From the NCBI GenBank assembly GCA_003171335.1, contig PMYD01000055.1, positions 1 through 59,210 of the forward strand: DNA of 59,210 nt, in the 5' to 3' direction. Positions 40,489 to 59,070 of this stretch are shown here, in pieces. A model generated the notes under the pieces. It saw nothing but the letters and a program-made list of their open reading frames with translations, was not told the origin of the DNA and searched no databases. Each line of letters starts with the position of its first letter. Within the stretch, counting starts at the first letter, position 1. This stretch comes from Phycisphaerales bacterium (lineage in GTDB: Bacteria > Planctomycetota > Phycisphaerae > SM23-33 > FEN-1343). Made by a program: the position numbers and the translations under genes.

Positions 40489-40800
40489 AGGCTTCCCCAA
40501 AAACCGGATTCAGCGGCCGCACCGTCTGGCCAATCGGCCCAAGCATCATTCGAGGCATTGTAATCATGCCCCGAGAATCGGCAAGTCCAGTACAGCCAAG
40601 AAGGGTCCACGCCGACCATAAGTGTTACGTTCATCGCAAGATGCTGTATAGTGAATACTTACATAACAAATGCTACCCGGCAAAGTGAAGAGGCTGCTAC
40701 TTACCCCGCTAAAGCAGCGAAGCGGAACCCGCAATAGCTAGTACCGTAGCTCTTCTTCTTCAGGAACCGCCAAAAAAAATTATATTTACACTAACTATCC

Positions 40801-40829
40801 TTGACAAGATGCGTCTGTACCGGTAGAGT
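40801..40829 (+). promoter_or_regulatory. Sigma-70-type promoter upstream of the dyad array
   Basis: Perfect TTGACA (40801-40806), 17-bp spacer, then TAGAGT (40824-40829). Transcription would start near 40836 and run through the palindrome and dyad array toward rpsU. No open frame lies just downstream, so it would drive a noncoding RNA or a very long rpsU leader. Confidence 0.5.
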
Positions 40830-40913: not shown

Positions 40914-40935
40914 CTGGCGCACATATGTGCGCCAG
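40914..40935. promoter_or_regulatory. Perfect 22-bp palindrome
   Basis: CTGGCGCACAT and ATGTGCGCCAG abut without a loop. It lies about 78 bp after the predicted start at 40836. It may be a dimeric-repressor operator or a hairpin in the transcript. Confidence 0.5.
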
Positions 40936-41027
40936 CGGCGGTCGATGAGGATCGCTGGCCCCACATTGACAAACGAATAGGGTGTGATTTGCCGCACCGG
41001 CGCGGCTCGTACCTCAAGAGCCCGATT

Positions 41028-41271
41028 CAACTGAGGAATTTCCTCAGTTGCGCCGGCAAGCATTCCCTTACCACCGTAACGGATAATGGAACTGCGGAAT
41101 TTCCGCAGTTGCCTGCCGCGGCGAGGAGCCTTGTCTTAACTCCTGCCTTCCGTAACGGATAAGGGAACTGGAGAATTTCTCCAGTTGCTTGGCACCGCGA
41201 GGACCTTTCTTGACCCACCGCCTTCAGCATTTCTCCGTAACGGATAGTGGAACTGGAGAATTTCTCCAGTT
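41028..41271. repeat. Array of four dyads with compensating arm changes
   Basis: Units lie at 41028-41050, 41090-41110, 41166-41186 and 41251-41271. Each has 10-bp or longer arms around a central T. The left arms read AACTGAGGAA, AACTGCGGAA, AACTGGAGAA and AACTGGAGAA, and each right arm is the exact complement. The last three are each preceded, exactly 16 bp earlier, by CCGTAACGGATA (41074, 41150, 41235). Spacings between units are 61, 76 and 85 bp. Confidence 0.8.
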
Positions 41272-41364: not shown

Positions 41365-41392
41365 TTGAATTCCCGGGCCGAATGGGTATCAT
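41365..41392 (+). promoter_or_regulatory. Probable rpsU promoter
   Basis: TTGAAT (41365-41370), 16-bp spacer, TATCAT (41387-41392), about 70 bp before the rpsU start. A 6-bp GC hairpin (GGGGCC/GGCCCC, 41409-41424) lies in the resulting leader. Confidence 0.45.
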
Positions 41393-41464: not shown

Positions 41465-41656
41465 ATGATAAAGGTGAAGGCGCGCGGCAATGAATCGGTG
41501 GAGCAGATGCTTCGCCGGTTCAAAAAGATGTGTGAGAAGGAAGGTCTGACCAAGGACATCAAGCGTAACAGCTACTACGAGAAACCTTCCGAGCGCCGCC
41601 GCCGCCGCATGCGCAAGAGCGCCAAGCGCGCCATCATGGAACGCACCGGCCTGTGA
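41465..41656 (+). CDS. rpsU: 30S ribosomal protein S21
   Basis: The 63-residue basic protein matches bS21: IKVKARGNESVEQMLRRFKK at the N-terminus, then CEKEGLTKDIKRNSYYEKPSERRRRR. It binds the 30S platform and influences initiation at the anti-Shine-Dalgarno end of 16S rRNA. ATG 41465 gives the canonical start. It is followed immediately by rsfS. Confidence 0.93.
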   Translation: MIKVKARGNESVEQMLRRFKKMCEKEGLTKDIKRNSYYEKPSERRRRRMRKSAKRAIMERTGL

Positions 41657-58617: not shown

Positions 58618-59070
58618 TCAATCCCAGACGGTCGTCGGATCGTATTCGATCCCATGCCGCTGAAGGAACGCCAGGAATTCCTCCTCGAACGTCATCGTCC
58701 GATGATGTTCGACCTGCCTGGCGATGTAGGTGTGCACTTTGGGGCAGATCGAATGGCTCACGCTAAAGGCGGCATAGCCGTTTTGCCACCGAAATGGCGA
58801 GACCGGACGAATCGTCTTGTTCACCCAGCCAGAAGAAAGGGCCTTGAGCTTCCCAACGGCCGAAGAAATCGCGATCATCGGGCGGATCGTCATGAGAGCA
58901 TGGACGTGGTTTTCCGTGCCGCCCAGGACCATCATCTGGCCAAATTCGGTTCTCGCCACGCCGGTCATGTATTCATGAAGGCGCTGGCGGAAATCGGCCG
59001 CGATGAGGTCCTTCCGGTCTTTAGTGCCGAACACCACGTGATAAGCCACATTGATGAACGTATGCCCCAT
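58618..59070 (-). CDS. REP-associated tyrosine transposase (IS200/IS605 Y1 family)
   Basis: The 150-residue single-domain HUH protein has the metal-binding pair His55-x-His57 in ENHVHALM, catalytic Tyr115 in HTYIARQ, and the family ending EHHRTMTFEEEFLAFL. Such RAYT proteins nick single-stranded REP hairpins and are thought to spread them. ATG 59070 has GGGAGG about 7 nt upstream. It is intact and framed by inverted REPs, so it may still be active. Confidence 0.9.
   Translation of the reverse strand: MGHTFINVAYHVVFGTKDRKDLIAADFRQRLHEYMTGVARTEFGQMMVLGGTENHVHALMTIRPMIAISSAVGKLKALSSGWVNKTIRPVSPFRWQNGYAAFSVSHSICPKVHTYIARQVEHHRTMTFEEEFLAFLQRHGIEYDPTTVWD

Follow-up and report, generated by a model that had tools for sequence, protein, structure and literature searches.

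Arrays of covarying palindromes in a Phycisphaerales genome are probable recognition sites of ParB/Noc-like paralogs of differing specificity

The genome of a Phycisphaerales bacterium contains arrays of short palindromes (dyads) in which the two arms change together. Based on sequence comparison and structure modeling, we consider it very likely that the dyads are recognition sites of dimeric ParB/Noc-like proteins that differ in specificity, and that the arrays are most likely their loading sites. This assignment draws on five properties computed here: the linkage of sites to genes, a rule that relates residues to bases, the repertoire of paralogs, their ParB/Noc/KorB fold and the spacing of arrays from promoters.

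The palindrome array upstream of rpsU

One array lies upstream of rpsU in the window, the whole stretch of 59,210 nucleotides that was analyzed. It occupies a gap bordered on the other side by a thioesterase-like gene on the minus strand that ends at 40500 (Table 1). A preliminary description of this DNA gave the gap as 975 bp; from the end of that gene to the rpsU start at 41465 it measures 964 bp. The four palindromes, previously taken to be near-perfect and 21–23 bp long, are each exactly 21 bp and perfect, and all follow an odd 10+1+10 plan, AACTG-NN-GAA-T-TTC-NN-CAGTT. As had been reported, their inner bases (AGG, CGG, GAG and GAG) are altered on both arms together, and a CCGTAACGGATA box precedes three of the units at a distance of 16 bp. 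This box is not general, with nine exact copies in the genome. A dyad search of the window allowing up to three mismatches returned eight matches (the four sites on both strands) vs. 0.04 expected from shuffled sequence.

The good promoter noted at the upstream end of the gap corresponds to a promoter-like TTGACA-17-TAGAGT, and a further, proximal rpsU promoter is situated 3' of the array. The proximal promoter is present in relatives that have a locatable rpsU start and is kept in the window, and no array was found upstream of rpsU in the approximately 20 relatives examined. Since these relatives are without the array, and their proximal promoter is retained downstream of it, the array has no part in the rpsU leader shared by the group.

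Table 1. Features of the rpsU array region (window coordinates) and ParB-like paralogs encoded in the genome (contigs).
Feature	Location	Strand	Remark
CTAACTATCC box	40791..40800	+	Also in promoter regions of 12 or more other arrays
Sigma-70-like promoter TTGACA-17-TAGAGT	40801..40829	+	228 bp 5' of first dyad
Leader block GCGGCGGTCGATGAGGATCGC	40935..40955	+	Conserved; also in arrays L156, L175 and L138
Dyad 1, 21 bp, class AGG	41029..41049		Predicted site of SNK-type ParB-like paralog (contig C45)
CCGTAACGGATA box before dyad 2	41074..41085	+	16 bp start to start
Dyad 2, 21 bp, class CGG	41090..41110		Predicted site of SDK-type paralog (contig C113)
CCGTAACGGATA box before dyad 3	41150..41161	+	16 bp start to start
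Dyad 3, 21 bp, class GAG	41166..41186		Predicted site of NHR-type paralog (contig C25)
CCGTAACGGATA box before dyad 4	41235..41246	+	16 bp start to start
Dyad 4, 21 bp, class GAG	41251..41271		Predicted site of NHR-type paralog
Proximal rpsU promoter TTGAAT-16-TATCAT	41365..41392	+	3' of array; same position as in relatives
rpsU (bS21)	41465..41656	+	First gene 3' of array
Paralog SNK	C45		Dyad AGG
Paralog SDK	C113		Dyad CGG
Paralog NHR	C25		Dyad GAG
Paralog DHN, four copies	C150, C37, C148, C82		Dyad GTG
Paralog DEK	C44		Dyad ACGTCCGG
Paralog SHM (helix SHMMV)	L281/L373, C159		Different dyad ACTTTAAACcGTTTAAAGT, three times in same place
Paralog VDS	C168

Dyads and arrays across the genome

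Further copies had been anticipated, and they are abundant in the genome itself: the 4.2-Mb assembly (169 contigs) has 165 exact copies of the pattern (84 forward, 81 reverse), mostly in arrays. A covariance-model search, proposed earlier for planctomycete genomes, detected none in the 59 relative genomes, in agreement with the pattern search of the same 59. Array statistics were obtained from approximately 1.04 Mb of fetched regions, chosen around known copies, which hold 186 copies in 70 mainly intergenic clusters of one to nine. Dispersed arrays usually have two to five sites of mixed class, frequently at a constant spacing (57, 63, or 75 bp) and with diverged spacers, and further dyad families of the same plan (ACGTCCGG, GACTCCAT, and GACTCCGAC) are interleaved with the 21-bp dyads. 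Among 66 distinct members all ten pairs are intact in 92.6% of cells, and the covariation score is 0.385, vs. 0.115 in shuffles.

The paired changes were initially read as a sign of RNA hairpins or cruciform-type targets. The symmetric pairing itself is upheld by these data, but the step from pairing to RNA or a cruciform is not, as mispairs counted by array are equally divided (25 G.T vs. 24 A.C), favoring neither strand, and as the bases are predicted by a DNA-binding helix (see below). The arrays have no match in Rfam, and the search for intrinsic terminators 3' of them gave no clear signal. Elsewhere in the window, two inverted matches to Acido-Lenti-1 RNA (RF01687; 88–132 on the minus and 273–317 on the plus strand) score just above threshold and could be two copies of a hairpin repeat instead of an RNA gene.

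Two other candidate identities were considered for the arrays and rejected. A CRISPR array does not fit, since the repeats of one array belong to different classes and the spacers are diverged copies of one another. Coding repeats would account for the many unit lengths divisible by three and for the frequently open frame ACT GNN GAA TTT CNN CAG; in the 75-bp array family, variation is flat across codon positions in leader and spacers, and the arrays look non-coding. A separate 51-bp palindrome on contig C88 (L186, 281–332) carries a CGTTACGGATA box, which also adjoins dyads, and may be a site of another regulator.

Being high-copy, intergenic, clustered and in mosaic with other dyad families, the dyads resemble the REP/BIME elements associated with RAYTs, which are short dispersed palindromes in mosaic clusters with covarying stems (PMC3733652), and the covarying arms are a further likeness. 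Selfish palindromes of this type would be spread by a RAYT (Y1) transposase, and the genome has 13 Y1_Tnp matches, with inverted GC-rich REPs flanking most of the RAYT loci examined. One of these matches is in the window (58618–59070, minus strand), where a RAYT-type Y1 transposase gene between inverted CCACGGGC hairpins forms a canonical REP/RAYT unit. However, the 21-bp dyad flanks none of the examined Y1 loci, which have other REPs or none, and it has no cognate RAYT and no conserved GTAG/CGTC tag, its flanks showing only a preceding C and a following G. The dyad is instead tied to ParB-like genes and follows their recognition helix, and we regard an origin as REP/BIME-type elements as highly improbable.

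Palindromes carried within ParB-like genes

A scan of bacterial genomes with the palindrome pattern, in which bases 6 and 7 were left open, gave matches in several phyla. Genes with ParB_N and helix-turn-helix regions from several phyla, phages and Leptospira plasmids contain the same palindrome, in many cases directly 3' of the codons for the recognition helix, where it encodes T-x-E-I-P-Q-L. To these palindrome-found genes we added helix-turn-helix relatives from viral contigs (found by a protein pattern), plasmids and phages. One full-length protein as query found no relatives in the viral contigs, but an alignment of the helix-turn-helix segment did. Of the 66 pooled helix-turn-helix genes, 59 have a palindrome nearby (at least 8/10 in the arms, an AA.TT centre and a distance of at most 160 nt), and in 52 of these 59 its distance from the preceding reference codon is exactly 41 nt. 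The other seven have a similar helix-turn-helix motif with no such palindrome within 160 nt.

The two open bases follow the residues at positions 1 and 2 of the recognition helix. Base 6 agrees with the first residue (His with G in 35/35 genes, Asp with C in 18/19, Asn with A in 3/3 and Glu with C in 2/2) and base 7 with the second (Lys with G in 52/52, Asn with T in 3/4 and Arg with A in 1/1). The majority rule for base 6 is obeyed by 58 of the 59 genes, while the maximum in 20,000 shuffles, which ignore gene relatedness, was 45. The cases are not all independent since many are related phage and plasmid homologs; the Asp-Lys and His-Lys cases each come from several phyla, and the Asn-to-T and Arg-to-A pairings at base 7 are known from the paralogs of this genome only. 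One gene, L372, is a misfit to the rule as parsed.

In its usual frame, the palindrome has GAA as the Glu codon in 55/55 genes and ATT as the Ile codon in 54/55. It occurs in all three reading frames, however, and the rule still holds in the four genes where the frame is not the usual one (L059, L301, L066, and L363), so that conservation acts on the DNA sequence rather than on the encoded peptide.

In Prevotella (L087, L110, and L116), similar palindromes encoding T-D-E-I-Q-Q-L are repeated inside a different protein (LPGLRGFSATSMRNMRTFYEEW), which we take to be YhcG-like, hinting that self-carried sites are not restricted to ParB-like genes. In five phage and bacterial loci (L053, L111, L123, L307, and L308) a methyltransferase domain, MT-A70 or another, is either fused to the ParB-like helix-turn-helix or located next to it.

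ParB-like paralogs and their dyad classes

The genome encodes approximately ten ParB-like paralogs (Table 1). PF02195 (ParB_N) matches exceed the cut-off for those on contigs C45 and C159 and fall slightly short of it for those on C37, C148, C150, and C25; there is also a ParB-like match to phrog_1033 (5.8e-16) and a sequence match to Noc (3.4e-5). The top Foldseek matches of a structure model were Noc, ParB, KorB, and Spo0J. The mean pLDDT of the model is moderate (64), with the N-terminal 150 residues being better, and the modeled recognition helix (135–148) starts with the reading residues N135-K136. With ParB_N and a predicted palindrome-reading helix-turn-helix, the paralogs are assigned to the ParB/Noc superfamily. 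They also have a G-x-H-R-x-x-A-A motif at what we take to be the position of the ParB CTP motif. A link to partition is seen in Leptospira plasmids, in which one dyad precedes a ParA-like ATPase gene by about 97 bp and the dyad recurs within the adjacent ParB gene, and an IMG/VR contig has the same ParA-ParB-dyad arrangement with five dyads.

In the sampled regions the perfect symmetric classes are AG (41 copies), CG (34), GA (15), GT (15), and GG (1). The four abundant classes are exactly those for which the genome has a paralog, and GG, the His-Lys class that is common elsewhere, has its single copy. The SDK paralog, corresponding to CGG, was sought after the rule had emerged in other genomes, and was found. 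The dyad families beginning with GACTCCGAC and GACTCCAT are without a matching protein among the identified paralogs.

Caulobacter ParB binds parS as a symmetric dimer whose recognition helix reads the site (PMC7383237). We propose that each half-site here has the form NNNNN-XY-GAA around the central base, with X and Y being read by the first two recognition-helix residues: His would specify G, Asp or Glu C and Asn A at base 6, and Lys would specify G, Asn T and Arg A at base 7. Since the two subunits of a homodimer recognize identical half-sites, a change in one arm would be matched in the other. Given the residue-base rule and the presence of a paralog for every common class, the paired changes are thus best explained as half-sites of dimers with different specificities.

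Symmetry could also arise by mutation, with template switching homogenizing the arms and inverting the centre in the absence of any functional need, as has been documented for palindrome arms and their spacers (PMC8604942, PMC8794818). The centre bases of the arrays (T 152, A 6, C 0, and G 0) fit such a process. One strictly 63-bp array (L139, 994–1267) has its centre changed from T to A in two units with the spacers not inverted, as expected from template switching. This process leaves unexplained, though, why the arm class of a self-carried site agrees with the recognition helix encoded by the same gene, and why the classes of the genome match its paralogs. We therefore consider it very improbable as the whole explanation, although it may contribute to how arm classes arise.

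Promoters and genes around the arrays

Of the arrays that comprise three or more units, about half are preceded, 230–300 bp upstream, by a strong consensus promoter directed toward them. A strict form of the promoter box (TTGAC...TANAAT...CTAAC) has 14 copies in the genome, and in 14/14 cases an array follows 231–298 bp on; in most palindromes of these arrays the centre reads AATTT on the sense strand. The promoter box showed no enrichment in the 59 relatives. Two boxes near the array promoters, CTAACTATCC and GTGTCT, remain conserved in cases where the promoter itself has moved (in the window and in L156). The gene 3' of an array is usually in the same direction and often a housekeeping gene; by our own reading of the sequences these include rpsU, tig, ilvB, carB, serA, mnmE, mnmA, and an hppA-like gene.

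The promoters, the sense orientation of the centre and the strong arm covariation are all compatible with arrays that are transcribed, either into noncoding RNAs or as part of long 5' leaders, with selection for RNA pairing. Against this stand the lack of a transcribed-strand bias among mispairs, the lack of an Rfam match, the missing array at rpsU of relatives and the conservation of the palindrome within protein-coding genes from other phyla, where it falls in three frames and a DNA-binding helix predicts its bases. On balance we find RNA hairpins very unlikely, and return to sites for ParB/Noc-like dimers.

Comparison with known ParB-family systems

The nearest solved structure to the paralogs, by both sequence and fold, is Noc, a ParB-family protein whose palindromic sites in Bacillus subtilis number about 70 and are dispersed over the chromosome (PMC4331003). 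Unlike those of Noc, the sites described here are 21 bp in length, are arranged in arrays with at least 165 copies, belong to several paralogs of differing predicted specificity and also occur within the gene of the protein itself. ParABS systems share ParB_N and the helix-turn-helix with the paralogs, and the Leptospira plasmid dyads, before a ParA-like gene and inside a ParB gene, are a further likeness. A B. subtilis parS site within spo0J is comparable to the self-carried sites. However, the sequence of parS is unlike the dyad, and the sites in this genome are dispersed before genes. KorB of plasmid RK2, also a ParB-family protein and among the fold matches, silences promoters from operators that are 45 to >1,000 bp distant (PMC11790492), while the arrays here number dozens and are located approximately 230–300 bp downstream of promoters.

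Proposed roles and implications

Dimers of each paralog are expected to bind dyads of their own class, and such class-specific binding would bring several paralogs together at mixed arrays. Judging from ParB, Noc, and KorB, CTP-dependent clamps may load at these sites and from there spread along adjacent DNA, where the loaded proteins could act on promoters, as KorB does, or organize the chromosome, as Noc does. The binding itself, the clamp behavior and the physiological role are what we infer from the computed properties.

Of the possible roles for the arrays, we favor long-range transcription control, which we consider plausible if short of probable, because many arrays are situated about 270 bp from strong promoters and before housekeeping genes. 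Segregation or a nucleoid-occlusion-type organization of the chromosome appears rather unlikely, and a selfish or residual status more unlikely still. More tentatively, the paralogs, with specificity set by two residues, may load at mixed arrays some 270 bp past dedicated promoters and control housekeeping genes at a distance by sliding, in a combinatorial and dispersed form of ParB-like regulation; the family would then represent a readable code in which the target lies beside the recognition helix.

Work on specificity in the ParB family has centered on the ParB/Noc pair. Here, many natural protein-site pairs are available because each gene carries its own target; that the recognition code is novel is our own judgement, from the open-library literature. 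The self-carried targets make the recognition code of the ParB-like family directly testable and targets predictable from protein sequence, and our findings suggest that, in one bacterial lineage, ParB-like proteins have become a genome-wide set of site-specific factors positioned before housekeeping genes.
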